Positions 3,700 to 22,898 of a stretch of 47,391 nucleotides of DNA are shown one piece after another. The translations under genes were made by a program, and so were the position numbers. The notes beneath the pieces were generated by a model. The model did not search any database. It saw only the letters and a list, made by a program, of their open reading frames with translations, and was not told the DNA's origin. This DNA comes from Amanita rubescens (Eukaryota > Basidiomycota > Agaricomycetes > Agaricales > Amanitaceae), in assembly GCA_015039365.1 (NCBI GenBank), contig WION01000407.1:1-47391 (forward strand). Reading direction: 5' to 3'. The stretch's first letter is position 1. Every line of letters begins with the position of its first letter.

Positions 3700-4590
3700 G
3701 TCAACTCCACCATGGCCACTACTCCCCATCCGTAACAGTCACGGCAGATGGACTAGCCCATGCACTCGATAAAATGGGACTTACCGAGTCGGTATCAGCG
3801 GCATCGTTATATGACACAATTCTGCGACTGCAGTCCCCAGGCCCCGGTAATGCCATCCCTCAGAGTAAGTTAAATTACGACGTTCTTATGCAGATAAATA
3901 ATATATTCTTCAGCCGCTAAGGAGGGTTCCCCTGTTGATCACCGTCGTCCGCCGCGGGTAATGATGAGGGCTTACCCCGGGTAGGTTCTTGTTTAGGTCG
4001 TCGAAACTCAATCACAAAAACATCTGACGTGTTATCAGGCCGATATCCCTTGCAACCGCTTCAGCAGGTCAAGCTACCCCAGGCCCTGGTGATGCCATCC
4101 TTCAGAGTAAGTCAAATTATGATATTGTTATACCGACGAATAATATATAACTATTTCTTCAGTCGCCAAGGAAGGTTTCTCTAACCAACCAAGTCGCTTC
4201 GGTGACACGACGAGACCAGGCCCCGATTTTTTCGACCCAGTTCGTGTCGAGTATCGCCGTAAGGTGCGGGAAATGAGGAAGGTAGATTTCCCCAATGGCG
4301 TTCCATAAGCGCAAGAAACTCCGAAAACAAGTTAGGAGTAAGTGTCCCCATGGGTAGCCCGTTATTACTTAACGACTAGATCATGGCGTTCCAAATCCAG
4401 ATCCAACGTTATATCTGCAGTAAGCGGCTACGCATCCACGTGTTTTATGCGTCTTCACCGATTGATTTGTCGTTTAGACCTCAACCGAGTCGCGAGAGAC
4501 GCCGATGCTGGGGATAGCCCGCTCATCTTTGGCGGTATGCAAGTTGTTCGTATTTTCTTGAGGATGTTGAAGCCCTTTGGCTAGAATGGT
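3700..4590 (+). pseudogene. Coding-like fragments of an unrecognised gene containing a duplicated exon-intron unit
   Basis: Short plus-strand stretches read as protein with plausible introns between them. The first (about 3706-3873) ends in SPGPGNAIPQ. The others include an exon with AKEGSPVDHRRPP after 3916, a second copy with TPGPGDAILQ (about 4070-4110) and an exon with SRFGDTTRPGPDFFDPVRVE (about 4190-4280). The two PGPG/AKEG pieces, with the intron between them, form an imperfect direct repeat (about 3833-3935 and 4072-4180). I could not connect them into one gene with a clear start, and downstream ORFs to 4584 are weak. This may be a small lineage-specific gene or a relic. Confidence 0.35.
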
Positions 4591-15561: not shown

Positions 15562-18500
15562 ATGGCAGCTACAACTGGTGCACTATGTGTCTTAGCACTG
15601 CTAATCCTCAATGACTGACACATATCAGATCCAATGGATGAGACATGTCTTCAAATGCTCAGGGAACGCTATCTATGCCCACACTTTCGCATCCTTATCA
15701 TTGGGAGGGCTAATGCAGGCAAGACAACCATCCTTGAGAAGGTTTGTGGTGTAGCAAAGGGGACAAAACCCATTGTGGTATATGGCAAGGATGGTAAGTT
15801 AGTCTGAAATTTGTGCTTCCTTTGACTATTGAGTTTCTTGCAGGTAATCGGCTTGAACAGTCTGTGATTCATTTGATGCCATCACTTGAAGTGAGTGACA
15901 TAATGATGTGTGGATGTACCAAAAGTTCACATTATACATACAATGATGACAGAGAGGCCTGCATGATATTGAGCATCAAATTACATACCCTGGAAGTAAC
16001 TTTATCTTCCATGACTCTCAGGGTTTTGAGTCTGGTTCAACTGAGGAATTGGAGATTGCTTGGAAGTTCATTGAAAAGAAGTCTGCAGAAACTGAGCTGA
16101 AAAACCAGCTGCATGCAATTTGGTATCTTGCTTTATCCCTTTCCAATACTGACTGACCTGGCTTCATCTAGGTACTGTATACCAATGGACAGCCCTCGAC
16201 CCATTCTACCTGCAGAACTTGAATTCTTCAATAAAGGGACAGGCAGAGGTATGTCCTAATGAATTCATATCTCATCTTGTAACTTGTTGGTTTTGGAGAG
16301 ATTGTTTACCCTTAACTATGATTGTCACCTCCTTTCCATTGGCCAACTTACCACAGAATCTACTAGTACTGATTAGTAAACATCCCCTCTTCCACAGTTC
16401 CTTTGGTGGTTATATTCACTAAATTTGATGGTCAAATGGCCAGTGAATTTGTCAACTTGACTGATGCAAAGGATGAAGATAAGTGGGAGAGAGCCAGGGA
16501 AATTGCTGATATCACTTTCCAGAAAGTTTATCTTCCTAAAGTTTTGGATGCCAAATATCCTCCCAAGGCATATGTGCGTTTGGAAGGTGAGAATGATAGC
16601 ATTGATAGGATTTCTTCCTAAAAAATGGGAGTAATGTTGTTTCATAGACATGGACTTGCCAGAGAAGAATTGTGCTCAATTAACTCAGCAAACTGCTGAT
16701 GCAATAGATGATGACACCATACATCAATTGTTTGTTTCAACACAGATGAACAATCTTGACCTTTGTGTTAAATCTGCACTTCAGTGAGGGTTACATTCAA
16801 ATGTCACTTACTGACATTGACATTATTCAGACATGTTCTGAAACATCCAGATATGATCTGGGATGATGTCATTATCATAGTTTTTTCAAAATTTCCACAT
16901 TTCTGGGTATGAATTTGGGTCAAATTGCAAATCAGAATAGCAAAAATTGATGGCAACAGGTGGACAGGGAGGTAGGTGACCTTCAATGGGGTGATAAATA
17001 TTTAAAGTTCATCAGGAGGTAAGTCACACTCCAATGCCTCCACATAAAAAACAAGTTTAGTCATGCTTCAGATGGCAAATAAAAAACTGAGTGAAACACA
17101 AGTTAGTTGCCACAATCATTATCCAGGTTGGTGGTGCCAAGGTGTGATATTATTGATACCAGTGGGTAAGTGACATTTAACTAGCATAAATCTGATATAT
17201 GTATTGTCTTATGACCTGAACAGTTTGTGAGTAGTGCTTCCTTTTGTGAAGCAGGAGTCTCACCTCATAATCTACAGGAAGTGAGTGACATAGCTCAATT
17301 TTGATTTTGGTAAATGGTCTAATGTTGCATCATATGACCAATAGCAAGTGAGTTCAATAATCTATCATTGTAAGCATACTTGTCAATCCAGTCACTTGTG
17401 GACAGGGAGTGAGTGGCACAGCACTGTCTCACACCACATCTGACCTGCTTAAAGAAAGTAAGTATGTTGGTGCAGTTTATTGAACATAACTCAATGAACA
17501 ATGGAAAGTTGGTGACATACTGTTATCTGAAAGAGTCTCAACAAATTTCATTGGATTAATAACAGGAAGTAAGTGAGATTGAGTCCTTTCTGTCTGCTTA
17601 TAAACATGACATCTTGTCACAAAACAACAGACAGTAAATATCTCTCCTTTTCAAAGCCTCTTGATAAGCTATTGCAAACAAACAGGATGTATGTGATCCT
17701 TTGGTTCAGAGAAGTGAATTCATGATATGAAATACTATGGCAAAAGAGAGTCAGTGGCATTGTTCTCTTGGTTCCCAACTCATGATGCTAATTCCATGCT
17801 AAAAGGAAGTGTGTGATCCTGGCCACTCCACCAAAGGATAATTTGGATGCATTCTTTTTTTCTACAGATTGTGAGCAATATTGCAAATATTGTGAAATCA
17901 CATCCTTTTCTGTGAACATAGGAGGTTAGCGGCATGTCATGCTGGTGTAGTGGTTCAAAGATGACATTATCAATTTTTTGCCTATGGACAACAGTATGTG
18001 AGTAACATTGCAAACATTTCTAAAAAGCTATAAATTCAATGTATTTTTTCCCTATGACTGACAGGATGTGAGCAACATTGAAGATCTTAGTGGAAGGTAG
18101 TCTCACCAAATCTTTTCCTATGACCAACAGGGAGTGAGTGATTGCACATTGTGTGAAAGGCACTGGTTCATCACATCTTTTTCTATGACCAACAGGAAGT
18201 GAGTGACATTGCACATTTTGTGAAAATCATCCCATCTTCTTTTATGACCATCAGGTTGTGAGTAACATTGTACATTTTGTGAAAGGCAATCTCATCACAT
18301 CTTTTCCTATGCACAATAGGATGTGAGTGACACAGTTGTATGTCTTGTGAAAGGCAGTCTCATCACATATTTTCCTATGACCAATGGCAGTTTGTGAGTG
18401 ACATTACATGTTTTGTAAAAGGCAGTCTCATCATATCTTTCCTATGACCAACAGTTTGTGGGTGACATAAATGTTTGAAAGGCAGTCTCATCATGTCTTT

Positions 18501-21500
18501 TCCTATGGCCATTGAACAGGAAGTGAGTGACATTGCACATTTTGTGAAAGGCAGCCCCATCACATGTTTTTCTATGACCAACAGGAAGTGAGTGACATTG
18601 CATTTTTGTGAAAGGCAGTCTCATCACATCCTTTCCTATGATCAACAGGAAGTGGGTGACATTGCATTTTTGTGAAAGGCAGTCTCATCTCATCCTTTCC
18701 TATGACAAACAGAAAGTGAGTGACTAGTAGTGACAATGCCCATTTTGTGAAAGGCAGTCTCATGACATCTGTTCCTATGACCAACAGTTTGTGAATGACA
18801 TTGCACTGTTGTGAAAGAGGTCTCACTGTCACACCTTTCCATATGACCAACAGAAAGTGAGTGACATTGCATGTTTTGTGAAAGGAAATCTCATCACATC
18901 TTTTCCTGTGACCAACAGTTAGTGAGTGCCATTGCATGTTTTGTGAAAGGGTTGATTGCATATTTTCCTATGACCAACAGGATGTGTGTGACATTGCAGA
19001 TTTGGTGAAAGACAACCACATCACATTATTTCTTATAACCAACAGTCTGTGAGTGACATGGCACATTGTGAAGGCAGGCTCATGACATCTATTCCTGTGA
19101 CCAACAGGATGTGAGTTACTAGTGACATTGAACATTTTGTGAAAGGCAGTCTTACTAATCACATCTGTTCCTTGGACCAATAGGGAGTGAGTGAAATTTC
19201 ACATTTTTGAAAAGGCATTCTCATCACATTTTTTCCTATGACCAACAGGAAGTGAGTGACATTGGACATTTTGTGAAAGGCAGTCATCACAACTTTTCCT
19301 GTGACCAAAAGGAAGTGAGTGATATTGCACATTTTGTGAAAAGCAGTCATATCACTTCTTTTCCAATCACCAACAGGGAGTGAGTGACATTGCACATTTT
19401 GTGATAAGCAGTCTCATCACTTCTTTTCCAATGAACAGGGAGTGAGTGACATTGCACATTTTGCAAATGACAGTCTTGTCACATCTTTTCCTATGACCAA
19501 CAGGTTGTGAGTGACATTGCACATGTTGTGAAAGGCATTCTTGTCACATCTTTTCCTGACAAACAGGTTGTGAGTGACATTGTGCATTTTGTGAAACATG
19601 GTCTTACTGATCACATTATTTCCTATGACCATTGAACAGGAAGTGAGTGACATTACACATTTTGTGAACAGCAGTCTCATTACATCTTCTGACCAACAGG
19701 GTGTGAGTGACATTGCACATTTTGTGAAAGACAATCTCATCACATGCTGTCCTATGTATGACCAATAGAAAGTGAGTGACATTGGACATTTTGTGAAAGG
19801 GAGTTTCATCACTTCTTTTCCTATGACCAATAGGGAGTGAGTGATATTGCACATTTTGTAAATGCATCATCATCACATCTTTTCCTATGACTAACAGCAA
19901 GTGAGTGACATTGGACATTTTGTGAATTGCAGTCTGATCACATCTTTTTCCCATGACCAACTTCTACAGCGAGTAGGTGACATTGCACATCTTGTGAAAT
20001 GCAGTCTGATCACCTCTTTTCCTATGACCAACAGCGAGTGAGGGACATTGCACATTTTGTGAAAGGCAGTCTGATCCTATGACCAACAGAAAGTGAGTGA
20101 CATTGCACATGTTGTGAAAGGTAGTCTAATCACAATTGTTTCCTATAACCAACAGGACAAGTCAGTGAGTGACATACAAGTTGGACATTTTGTGAAAGGC
20201 AGTCTGCCAAAACTTTGAGTTCTATCACCAACAGTTTGTGAGTGACATTCCACATATTGTGAAATGTAGTCTAATCACATTGTTTCCTATCACCAACAGC
20301 AAGTGAGTGGCATTTCATCTTTTTGAAAGGCAGTCTGACCACATCTTTTCATCACCAACAGGAAGTGAGTAACATTGCCCATTTGTGAAAAATCTTTTCC
20401 TACCACGAACAGTATGTGAGTGACATTGCACATGATGTTGTGAAAGGTAGTATAATCACAACTTTTCCTATGACCAACAGCTTGTGAGTGACATTTCATC
20501 TTTTGTGAAAAGTAGTCTGATCACTTTTCCTATGACCAACAGGAAGTGAGCAACATTACCCATTTGTGAAAGGCAGTCTAGTCTGATCACATCTTTTCCT
20601 ATCAATGACAGTTTGTGAGTGACATTGCAAATTTTGTGAAAAGGCAGCTCATCACATCTTTTCCTATGACCAACAGGGAGTGAGTGAAATTGCACATTTT
20701 GTGAAAGGCAGTCTCATCTTTTTCTATGACAAAACAGAAAGTGAGTTCAAGTTGGACATTGTACATTTTGTGAAAGACAAACACATCTTTTCCTATGACC
20801 AACAGGAAGTGAGTGACATGATTGCACATTTTGTGAAAGACAGTTTCAACATCACATCTTTTCCTATGAACAACAGCAAGTGAGTGATATTGCAAATTTT
20901 GTGAAAGGCAGTCTCATCAAATCTTTTCCTACAATGACAAACAGAAAGTGAGTGACATTCGTACATTTTGTGAAAGACAATTTCATCACACCAAGTTTTC
21001 CTATGAACAACAGCAGGTGAGTAACATAATTTTGTGAAGGCAGTCTCATCATATCTTTTCCTATGACAAACAGAAAGTGAGTGACAAAGTTGTACATTTC
21101 AAGTTTGTGAAAGACAGTTTCATCCCATCTTTCCCTATGACCAACAGCAAGTGAGTGACATTGCACATTTGCAAAATGCAGCTCATCACATCTTTTCCTA
21201 TGAACAACAGCGAGTGAGCAACATTGCAAATTTTTTGAAAGGCAGTCTCATCACATCTTTTCCTATGACCAACAGAGAGTGAGTGACATTGCACATTTTG
21301 TGAAAGGCAGTCTCATCACATCTTTTCCTATGATCAACAGTTTGTGAGATCATTGCACATTTTGTGGAATTCAGTATTAATAATTATTATATATTTTCCT
21401 ATGACCAACAGCGAGTGAGTGAGATTGTACATTTTGTGAAAAGCAGTCTCATCACATCTTTTCCTATGACCAACAGAAAGTGAGTGCCACCATTGTACAT

Positions 21501-22898
21501 TTTGTACATTGTGTGAAAGGCAATCTCATCACATCTTTTCCTATGACCAATAGTTTGTGAGTGACATTGCAAGTTTTGTGGCAGTCTCATTATATATGAG
21601 TCAATTCCTATGACTAACAGGATGTGAGTGGTATTGCAAATTTTGTGAAAGGCAGTCTCATCACACCTTTTCCTATGGCCAACAATAGCGAGTGAGTGAC
21701 ATTGCATATTTTGTGAAAGGCAGTCTTGTCACATCTTTTCCTATGAACAACAGCGAGTGAGTGACATTTCACATTTGTGATAAGCAGTCTCATCACATAT
21801 TATCCTATGACCAACAGCTTGTGAGTGACATTGCAAATCTTCTGAAAGCCTTATTACATCTTTCCCCATGACCAACAGCGAGTGAGTGACCTTGCACATT
21901 TTGTGAGCAGTAGTCTCATCATATCTTTTCCTATGATCAACAGGTTGTGAGTGACATTATACATTTTGTGAAAGGCAGTCTCATCACATCTTTTCCTGTG
22001 ACCAACTGGCAACAGCTTGTGAGTGTGACATTGTGCAATTTGTGAAAGGCAACATCACATCTTTTCCTATTATCAACAGCTTGTGAGTGACATTGCACAT
22101 TTTGTGAAAATGCAGTCACATCACATTTTTGTTTGACCAACAGCCTGTGAGTAACATTGCAAATTTTCTGACCTGTATTCTAAGCACACCTCAACTAATG
22201 AATGTTTGCTATATCATTACATCTTATGCATTAATATCAGAAAGTGAGCAGGTTACTACATCCTTTCCATGTCCTCATTTCATATTATAATTATTATTTT
22301 CATAGATTGTAAGATTTTATTTCAGCTCACTCACTCCCACCTTGTTTGATTATTCCTTTCACTTATACAAACCACTTTCCTTCATTTCCAGGTGAGTGAT
22401 GCTGGTTCATGAGGTATTTATTTTCACATAGTTGCCTGCTACATAGTGTGTAGGTCTGACGATACTTGGATTGGATGTTTTATTTTATCTCATAACTAGC
22501 ATGAACTTTTCTCCATGTTTGGAGACAAGCAAAGGAACTTTACAGTGAAGGTATTTTTGTTCTTTTTTGGGGGGTACTAGTAACTGACACAACTAATGCC
22601 ATTGCAACAAGCCTAGTGATTGCCAAGTCTTAGTTTGTAAAGTACTCCTTTTTATTTACTGTATTCATGCTTAAACCATTAAGCAATTATTGTCATTGCC
22701 AAGCTATCCTTTTGGATCAATGAACCATTCCTGCCATCAGTCACAAAAGCCTTGCATCAATACAAGCAAAAAGGCTATGTTCAAAAACTGAAGACTTTGG
22801 ACATTATTCCTGACTTTGCTCCTCACTTTGTGCACTCTGGTCATCAAGATTTGGTCACAATCCTCTATAAGCAGGTGACTCACATTGATGGTATGTAG
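15562..22898 (+). CDS. AIG1/GIMAP-like small GTPase whose central part is split into single-codon exons
   Basis: Exons I can join: 15562-15586, 15630-15793, 15844-15890, 15953-16122, 16172-16248, 16398-16586, 16648-16783, 16831-16906, then 16960-16971 or beyond. The G1 motif GRANAGKTT is at 15703-15729, G3 DSQG at 16012-16023 and G4 TKFD at 16418-16429. TIHQLFVSTQMNNLDLCVKS follows, then VIIIVFSKFPHFW ending at 16906 in phase 0. This resembles the Agaricomycete G-domain family related to AIG1. Next comes the triplet-exon array (17163-22308). Coding resumes at 22500-22550 (HELFSMFGDKQRNFTVK) and 22704-22898 (LSFWINEPFLPSVTKALHQY to THIDGM, stop). The joins between 16972 and 17162 are unresolved. 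An alternative start is the ATG at 15634. Expected activity is GTP binding and hydrolysis; the biological role is unknown. Confidence 0.7.
17163..17924 (+). repeat. Triplet-exon array, diverged 5' units (13 clear, 1-2 candidates)
   Basis: Each unit is AG, three bases, GT, with intron bodies that share little sequence beyond splice signals. Triplet and first base: TGG 17163, TTT 17224, GAA 17278, CAA 17345, GGA 17406, AAA 17455, GAA 17566, ACA 17631, GAT 17686, AGA 17747, GAA 17806, ATT 17868, GAG 17922. A further candidate is TTG at 17509, which would split an otherwise 108 nt intron into 51 and 54 nt. GAG at 17016 (acceptor TTCATCAG, donor GTAAGTCA) may be another. Acceptors are CAG, TAG or AAG. 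Donors include GTGAGT, GTAAGT, GTATGT, GTCAGT, GTGTGT and GTTAGC. Introns are mostly 45-70 nt. Confidence 0.75.
17995..22146 (+). repeat. Triplet-exon array, homogeneous core (64 units, ~65 bp period)
   Basis: The consensus intron is 62 nt: GTGAGTGACATTGCACATTT at the 5' end, a middle TTGTGAAAGGCAGTCTCATC, and CTTTTCCTATGACCAACAG at the 3' end. Triplets with first base: TAT 17995, GAT 18065, GGA 18131, GAA 18196, GTT 18255, GAT 18320, TTT 18391, TTT 18455, GAA 18520, GAA 18585, GAA 18649, AAA 18713, TTT 18788, AAA 18854, TTA 18919, GAT 18981, TCT 19046, GAT 19108, GGA 19184, GAA 19249, GAA 19312, GGA 19377, GGA 19439, GTT 19504, GTT 19567, GAA 19640, GGT 19700, AAA 19769, GGA 19834, CAA 19898, CGA 19970, CGA 20035, AAA 20090, nine bases GACAAGTCA 20156, TTT 20235, CAA 20300, GAA 20362, TAT 20413, CTT 20481, GAA 20543, TTT 20612, GGA 20677, AAA 20738, GAA 20806, CAA 20877, AAA 20945, CAG 21014, AAA 21074, CAA 21148, CGA 21211, AGA 21276, TTT 21341, CGA 21412, AAA 21477, TTT 21554, GAT 21621, CGA 21689, CGA 21754, CTT 21818, CGA 21879, GTT 21944, CTT 22016, CTT 22080, CCT 22144. 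Third bases are A or T except CAG. Confidence 0.9.
22241..22308 (+). repeat. Triplet-exon array, diverged 3' units
   Basis: Two last units with bodies unlike the core: AAA at 22241 (acceptor TTAATATCAG, donor GTGAGC) and ATT at 22306 (acceptor TTTTCATAG, donor GTAAGA). Further on, CAG ends at 22391 and GTGAGT begins at 22392 with no base between, a zero-length unit. The next ordinary exon starts at 22500 after CTCATAACTAG. Confidence 0.7.

Follow-up and report, generated by a model that had tools for sequence, protein, structure and literature searches.

We have analyzed a stretch of 47,391 nucleotides from the basidiomycete Amanita rubescens (positions 1 to 47,391 of contig WION01000407.1, assembly GCA_015039365.1, forward strand), from here on the window, in which a gene of a GTPase family contains a long array of tiny exon-like units. 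When the GTPase exons of the window were used in a protein search they recovered the annotated A. rubescens protein F5887DRAFT_1066597 (P0001; proteins, loci and contigs carry here P, L and C numbers), whose deposited model stops at ..CVKSALQ, upstream of the array. Beyond that point, a relaxed and hand-curated decoding gave a chain of 80 micro-exons on the forward strand between 17163 and 22449, 79 of three nucleotides and one of nine, all of them with AG on the 5' side and GT on the 3' side and separated by introns of 46–138 nt (Table 1). The original prediction, made from the letters alone, had proposed about 79 three-base exons between 17163 and 22308. Its start was right, and within its limits we count 78 three-base exons plus the nine-base one; its end has to be moved to 22449, as the TGT exon at 22447–22449 adds one more. 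Very probably, the gene encodes a segment of 82 residues as 80 predicted in-frame micro-exons, the codons of which would be joined by the ordinary spliceosome into one frame.

The recurrence of AG, triplet and GT with a period of about 65 bp is real, lies where it had been described and is far above what chance would produce. The motif YAG-NNN-GTRAG has 66 sites between 17101 and 22320, against 3 in the remaining 42,171 bases on that strand and 2 in the entire reverse strand of the window, and 200 mononucleotide shuffles of the stretch gave a mean of 0.3 sites and a maximum of 4. The same flanks at other spacings, from 0 to 12 bases, were found at 0–2 sites each, and Tandem Repeats Finder recovered independently a 65-base period. 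The fungal-looking splice sites that had been noticed were also borne out: GTGAGT is the donor in 58 of the 80 cases, and the acceptors are CAG (66), TAG (10) and AAG (4). None of the 79 triplets is a stop codon (6.1 were expected from the positional composition), and as decoded the window stays open in a single frame from FPHFW through the tail, the array being in phase 0.

We have searched the 75.7 Mb assembly for similar arrays, with the proviso that near-identical duplicate contigs inflate the genome-wide counts. The pattern CCTATGACCAACAG-NNN-GTGAGTGACATT, with up to 3 mismatches, was found 2824 times (1416 and 1408 on the two strands) and its reversed control never. The array had been presented as a segment of one gene; its coding nature was supported, and the restriction to a single gene was not, arrays being a feature of a gene family. 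One could still think of these stretches as a single long intron or an untranslated satellite, with AG-NNN-GT as a mere by-product of the repeat unit, and this would agree with a deposited model that terminates upstream of the array and with the stops or off-length units present in a few arrays. However, the triplet is not unconstrained as in a non-coding satellite. The genome contains 2177 instances of the exact unit CAACAG-NNN-GTGAGTGA; 334 of the triplets start with T and 1128 end in RA, so that about 173 TAA or TGA would be expected, and a single one (TGA) was observed. TAG was absent as a triplet from these units.

To this we can add the decoding of 18 genomic regions together with the window (a 3-kb overlap between L011 and L012 makes some units count twice). 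Read without any prior on length, the 724 units comprised 697 of 3 nt, 7 of 6 nt and 3 of 9 nt, and among the 697 there was no TAA, TAG or TGA. Most triplets have A or T at the third base. The rare ones are NCA and NTA, which would create CAG or TAG, and those giving a new GT at the junction, with the exception of CTA, that comes mostly from L016; the internal codons of the few longer exons end in C or G. This codon choice fits ordinary splicing with avoidance of spurious splice sites.

The arrangement is conserved among copies. We have aligned the window with 13 other copies (L011, L012, L014, L017 and L026 were left out), and the series W F E Q G K (K) E T D R E I appeared as homologous single-codon exons in the 14, with AG and GT around nearly every one (L010 has GC in place of GT after one codon). 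About 13 single-codon exons are held in common in this start, with mostly identical codons. Over 14 start exons the pairwise identity was 0.865 for the triplets vs 0.798 for the intron bodies, and the gap rate, which is the stronger sign, 0.000 vs 0.212. In the window, the second lysine exon (an AAA unit near 17503) is without the acceptor AG that the other aligned copies retain, the letters being ATGG, a loss that would cost one residue only. Past the shared start the codons diverge between copies (16 to 63 decoded), and then all 14 rejoin the same tail, with exons of 51–93 nt (multiples of three), 25 nt and 187–208 nt (all 3n+1). The joined peptides have no stop, and as decoded the frame is kept in 13 of the 14, L016 being the exception; in this reading the off-length units (five in L016) and one alignment-shifted codon of L009 were omitted. 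The single codon preceding the tail exon is missing from L016 and L018 in the alignment. Next to it, at 22385–22400 between the ATT and TGT exons, a CAG abuts GTGAGT, that is, a zero-length exon and possible recursive splice site; this AG/GT juncture is aligned in 11 of 11 copies, and the protein P0121 described below has I-C across the place.

An assembly artefact, a repeat collapsed or expanded, would find some ground in the near-identical duplicate contigs (L039/L025, L040/L026 and L041/L024) and in the off-length units of L016, where introns are nearly identical. Against it, the arrays have many lengths and codon strings and are spread over dozens of contigs, their flanks being about 72–87 percent identical to those of the window, and one codon string is corroborated by an independent sequence of a relative (see below). 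We regard this explanation as practically negligible. The duplicates themselves (L039, L040 and L041 are 99.6–99.9 percent copies) were too alike to be of use as a source of polymorphism.

The most direct evidence came from proteins deposited from short JGI contigs that span the array segment without introns. A search with the 14-row alignment recovered 43 proteins at E up to 1, and one with the single joined C-terminal part had no match at E 1e-3. P0002 (..FPHLWVDR..LSETKWFEKGKKESDREIEYDG..) and P0027 (..FPHFWVGRDEMANKQLSEAQWFEHGKKDTDKQIVYDGE..) have the layout of the window, with the residues of the conserved start in the same order, and P0122, P0129 and P0134 also proceed from conserved start to variable part and tail. 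P0121 ends with ..QQFCLKIC-DELFSMFGDGQRNFAVK-PTDCQVLVS-IIIIAKLSFW.. and gave 150 scored matches to the genome, nearly all to its tail part. The tail fits best, and equally well, C207:22895-23095 and C278:210382-210582, with 90 percent identity, and judged by this value P0121 is from a relative. At the C207 locus (L044) we have decoded 73 three-base exons. Residues 1–63 of P0121 aligned with positions 2435–6213 of L044 through 58 of 59 decoded single-codon exons, in order, and 56 of the 58 were identical, against 15–25 identities in six shuffled-peptide controls. The differences all concern single codons: five residues lack an exon, and for one genomic codon there is no residue. That a relative has, in a sequence free of introns, the residues of a sister locus in their order makes it likely that the codons are spliced into one protein.

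The other intron-free array peptides recovered mainly the common start motif when compared with the decoded arrays, and P0002 was not matched to a locus of its own, the listed genome exons being at most 89 percent identical. Others, among them P0136 (ENA) and P0130 (JGI), read through ordinary tail introns and look genomic. P0008, P0069 and P0099, deposited relatives from A. brunnescens, A. polypyramis and Hebeloma, stop with FPHFW, FPFFW or FPNFW or a little after it, near the point at which arrays start in A. rubescens; arrays may be hidden there as well.

A single long intron or a satellite is hard to reconcile with the P0121 and L044 match, nor with the stop avoidance or with copies that re-enter the same tail frame past the array, and we have rejected it as highly improbable. 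A different alternative is that the codons are spliced mostly as optional cassettes, many of them skipped in each mRNA, so that each gene would give a family of variants. Skipping would be frame-neutral, as nearly all exons are multiples of three in phase 0, and single-codon gains and losses are precisely what distinguishes P0121 from L044. On the other hand, 58 of the 63 aligned P0121 residues map to exons and one decoded L044 exon was omitted, and the differences may lie in the genomes, P0121 coming from a relative. We therefore consider extensive skipping unlikely. The stop avoidance, the layout of the 14 copies and the agreement of P0121 with L044 support instead the earlier proposal of some 80 residues encoded by single-codon exons, and together with the frame they show, at the level of sequence, that such triplets correspond to exons whose codons appear in a continuous product.

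Several points weigh against this reading. For the window locus, the joined product is deduced from the sister loci and no transcript was seen. The intron-free contigs may be genomic and P0121 belongs to a relative, so that it could be an intron-free genomic homolog. The sole stop among the exact units sits in a 36-unit array (L045, on C537), and the degenerate L017 has 2 stops in 34 units. Of the decoded units, 880 in all, 8 have lengths that are not multiples of three; L016 has five of these, and L011, L012 and L017 have one each. L016 is the freshest array, and its five units of 2 or 4 bases leave it out of frame by 2 as decoded; they could be either real indels in an array that is decaying or tolerates skipping, or assembly errors among near-identical repeats. 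Triplet identity in the conserved start was about two standard deviations above that of random intron triplets, no more. Besides, part of the regularity is built into the methods: one of the array decoders rewards lengths 3 and 3n (the reading of 724 units without prior and the motif-spacing statistics are free of this bias), the protein-guided alignment of P0121 with L044 allows three-base exons only, and the one of L046 with P0134 (see below) permits phase-0 exons only, which makes multiples of three compulsory. Apart from this, we have noted that the off-length units of L016 are AATT, CA, CATT, CA and CA (at 4045, 4112, 4696, 5152 and 5216) and that its codons are nearly all C[A/T/G]A, varying mainly at the middle base.

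The introns themselves are copies of one sequence. In the consensus, distance and codon-block tests we left out L012, L014 and L017 and the first sixth of every array, and for consensus and intron distances only introns of 50–75 nt were kept. The majority sequence of 588 array introns from 16 loci was a single 62-mer, that we call the master. In 14 of the 16 loci the consensus was identical in all 62 bases to the one of the remaining loci, and L018 had one mismatch. As in introners, there are here many near-identical introns from one source. The mean distance from the master went from 0.2 percent in L016 to 12.6 percent in L011, and among the 16 loci exact master copies were confined to L016 (35 of 40 introns) and L026 (35 of 59). 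Intron distances within the locus were below those between loci in 5 of the 16 (L013, L016, L018, L023 and L026). The triplets differed at 38–68 percent of positions irrespective of intron divergence (L014 and L017 were left out of this comparison): in L026 introns were 2 percent apart and triplets 62 percent, and in L016, with all units counted, 5 and 38 percent. We have also compared array with ordinary introns (L013 out of the correlation, L011 and L026 without flank). In L016 the values were 0.2 vs 4.3 percent, and its array introns look younger than the ordinary introns of the same gene.

The distant paralog L046 was aligned with P0134 through 18 exons, with identity in 56 of 96 columns and a score of 270 vs 74–94 for five shuffles. 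The exons are of 12, 3, 3, 15, 3, 3, 3, 3, 69, 15, 18, 3, 18, 33, 3, 3, 3 and 66 nt, the last one being cut by the end of the scanned stretch, and 8 of the 17 introns resemble the master at z above 3 vs shuffles. It looks like an intermediate state, with some residues one per exon and others in blocks.

Both routes of origin that had been proposed for the array, saturating insertion of introns and tandem growth of an intron-codon unit, retain a place. We have a slight preference for the insertion of copies of the master intron between codons that already existed. It is favored because most loci share the master and the fresh arrays have diverse codons, and because orthologous-looking codons are conserved while the introns of L044 have drifted to 8.8 percent from the master. 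The copies would have spread in the manner of introners through a variable segment; later, single intron-codon units would have been gained or lost by recombination, and selection on the protein would have kept the codons while the introns drifted. Targeted hypermutation of the triplet was considered and is disfavored, P0121 and L044 agreeing at 56 of 58 codons while 57 L044 introns average 8.8 percent off the master.

There is, however, evidence that sits better with tandem duplication of the intron-codon unit, in which gene conversion would keep the introns alike, selection would keep or diversify the codons and expression would be unchanged. In L013, 45 introns share a 53-nt consensus specific to this locus. 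The nearest intron came from the same locus in 22 of 120 cases vs 7.8 expected, which indicates some local kinship, and repeated codon 3-mers exceeded the shuffles in L013, L016 and L019 and, over the 16 loci, amounted to 48 vs 26.3 expected. A copied unit is automatically in phase 0 and a multiple of three, whereas random insertion leaves the strict three-base phase-0 spacing and the A or T at the third base unexplained, and the single-codon gains and losses between P0121 and L044 are also what unit copying would give. Yet local homogenisation should yield a consensus specific to each locus, and 14 of 16 loci have the common one in all 62 bases; within-locus distances are not below the between-locus ones in 11 of 16; the almost uniform introns of L026 separate very different triplets; and the part of the window tested has no repeated codon 3-mer. 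As the sole origin, unit duplication appears to us a lesser possibility, though one to be taken seriously. Insertion fits most of the data, and unit duplication and loss probably also take part, as the spacing, the A/T third base, the L013 variant, the codon-block repeats and the single-codon changes suggest. The L013 codons form a heptad-like string (QKLQKLQK.., YLEREQYLERYKEYQRERD), perhaps a coiled coil.

Regarding the splicing, the length of the array introns is typical of small fungal introns. The spliceosome is predicted to excise them one by one by ordinary intron definition, each short intron being recognised alone, as the mostly GTGAGT donors and YAG acceptors suggest. Dozens of consecutive three-base exons leave little room for exon recognition, and therefore intron-by-intron splicing would be needed. 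Removal would probably start at the 5' end and move towards the 3' end, so that by the time the next donor is used the exon upstream of it has become long. With exon lengths in multiples of three and in phase 0, the skipping of one exon would remove a residue only, and if exons are sometimes skipped each gene could give many protein variants with the frame intact.

Table 1. Predicted features of the GTPase-family gene and its micro-exon array in the window.
Feature	Coordinates	Strand	Details	Evidence
GTPase exon with P-loop (GRANAGKTT)	15655..15801	+	start of F5887DRAFT_1066597	identical to P0001 residues 1-49
GTPase exon RGLHDIEHQ..HAIWY	15953..16126	+		identical to P0001 residues 50-107
GTPase exon YCIPMDSPRP..KGTGR	16173..16247	+	borders approximate	matches P0001 residues 107-131
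GTPase exon VPLVVIFTKFDG..YVRLE	16397..16585	+		matches P0001 residues 132-194
Exon DMDLPEKNC..VKSALQ	16647..16783	+	final exon of deposited model	matches P0001 residues 195-240
Exon HVLKHPDMIWDDVIIIVFSKFPHFW (HVLK..FPHFW)	16831..16908	+	absent from deposited model	counterpart residues in P0002 and P0027; read in 14/14 aligned copies
Exon VDRE	16960..16971	+	12 nt	AG..GT in 14/14 aligned copies; counterpart residues in P0027
First single-codon exon GAG (E)	17016..17018	+	outside the limits 17163-22308	AG..GT in 14/14 aligned copies
Exon MANKKLSETQ	17072..17101	+	30 nt; 24-33 nt in other copies	AG..GT in 14/14 copies; EMANKQLSEAQ in P0027
Micro-exon array	17163..22449	+	80 predicted exons; decoded string WFEQGKETDREIEYDGEVDFFEEEKFKLDSDGEEGGVVEGKGQRRKDKSFQEYLEFGKEQKQKQRRFRKFDRRLRVLLPKIC	AG/GT borders, spacing statistics, sister loci
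Conserved array start W F E Q G K E T D R E I	17163..17870	+	one residue per exon; second K missing in window	
Nine-base exon GACAAGTCA (DKS)	20156..20164	+	inside array	
Final three single-codon exons AAA (22241), ATT (22306), TGT (22447)	22241..22449	+	K I C	aligned in 11 copies; P0121 LKIC-DELFSMFG over the junction
Exon HELFSMFGDKQRNFTVK	22500..22550	+		counterpart stretch in P0121
Exon PSDCQVLV(S)	22612..22636	+	25 nt	PTDCQVLVS in P0121
Tail exon IIVIAKLSFWINEPFLPS..THID (IIVIAKLSFW..)	22684..22891	+	3' end of gene somewhere beyond	copy alignment, P0121 genome matches

P0001 passes the cut-off of PF01926 (MMR_HSR1) with 23.7 bits vs 21.9, and P0002 and P0084 stay under it with 16.1 and 18.3. 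The GTPase domain starts at residue 12 of P0001, which speaks against a secreted product with a signal peptide. For P0084, an intron-free relative, the structural model shows the GTPase domain and a helical tail confidently; residues 278–312, part of the variable segment, came out with low confidence. Foldseek placed dynamin-like, IniA and immunity-related GTPases on top for this model, with TM-scores of about 0.2–0.4 that are too weak for a family claim, and a Pfam scan of the tail had no match. Going by the model, the array segment is likely a variable linker joining the GTPase domain to the helical tail.

A full-text literature search, judged by titles and the beginning of abstracts and with subscription journals and preprints mostly outside its scope, found no description of single-codon exon arrays and, within the same scope, no paper with both words Amanita and microexon. 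The exons of the aphid bicycle and megacycle genes are far longer than one codon. Like the genes described here, they make up a fast-evolving family with many unusually small exons in one phase, nearly all phase 2, and a megacycle gene has more than 100 microexons; unlike here, their introns are not described as copies of one sequence in the part of the source available (PMC9168663). Schistosome micro-exon genes, as presented in the available part of PMC10526429, also have runs of short exons, mostly multiples of three, and form a multigene family missed by automatic annotation. Their exons are given as 3–81 bp in the abstract and 6–81 bp in the text, mostly 15 bp, with introns of 100 to almost 5000 bp, and the proteins are secreted (PMC10526429). 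Consecutive exons in multiples of three are found here as well (all 80 in the window and 707 of the 724 units read without prior, with 3, 6 or 9 nt); unlike the schistosome case, 79 exons here have a single codon, the introns between them are copies of one 62-nt sequence, and the family is one of GTPases. Introners and introner-like elements share with our arrays the near-identical introns multiplied in a genome, and in the portions of the sources at hand their copies are in many or unrelated genes, whereas here there is about one per codon inside one gene family (PMC9860276, PMC4457414). The word Amanita is absent from the main texts of these two papers. In another basidiomycete, the P450 genes of Phanerochaete have small introns (45–55 bp) and microexons, of 2–10 residues and with a shortest exon of 6 bp; the part available of that report describes no array (PMC1184071).

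If our interpretation is true, the array probes the limits of the smallest exon and the densest run of introns that a spliceosome can handle. We see evenly balanced chances for the broader proposition that, in a genome-wide gene family, copies of a single 62-nt intron came to occupy nearly all the codon junctions of the segment in dozens of genes, making each residue a frame-safe cassette that can be separately lost, gained or swapped. Were this so, the architecture of the genes would be of a new kind, and so would the saturating, phase-specific gain of introns. For research on intron gain the arrays would be an unusually clean case, in which a single genome offers partial (L046), old (L011) and fresh (L016, L026) states. 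As the deposited model of the window stops upstream of the array, a class of proteins may have escaped automatic annotation.

Two minor observations can be added. Lone matches to the unit motif outside arrays, at C1:764511 and C2:194002, are possible single intron copies or chance. In the window, at 2274–2412, there is a tandem repeat with a 24-base unit that encodes GGNGPSGLS-like residues.

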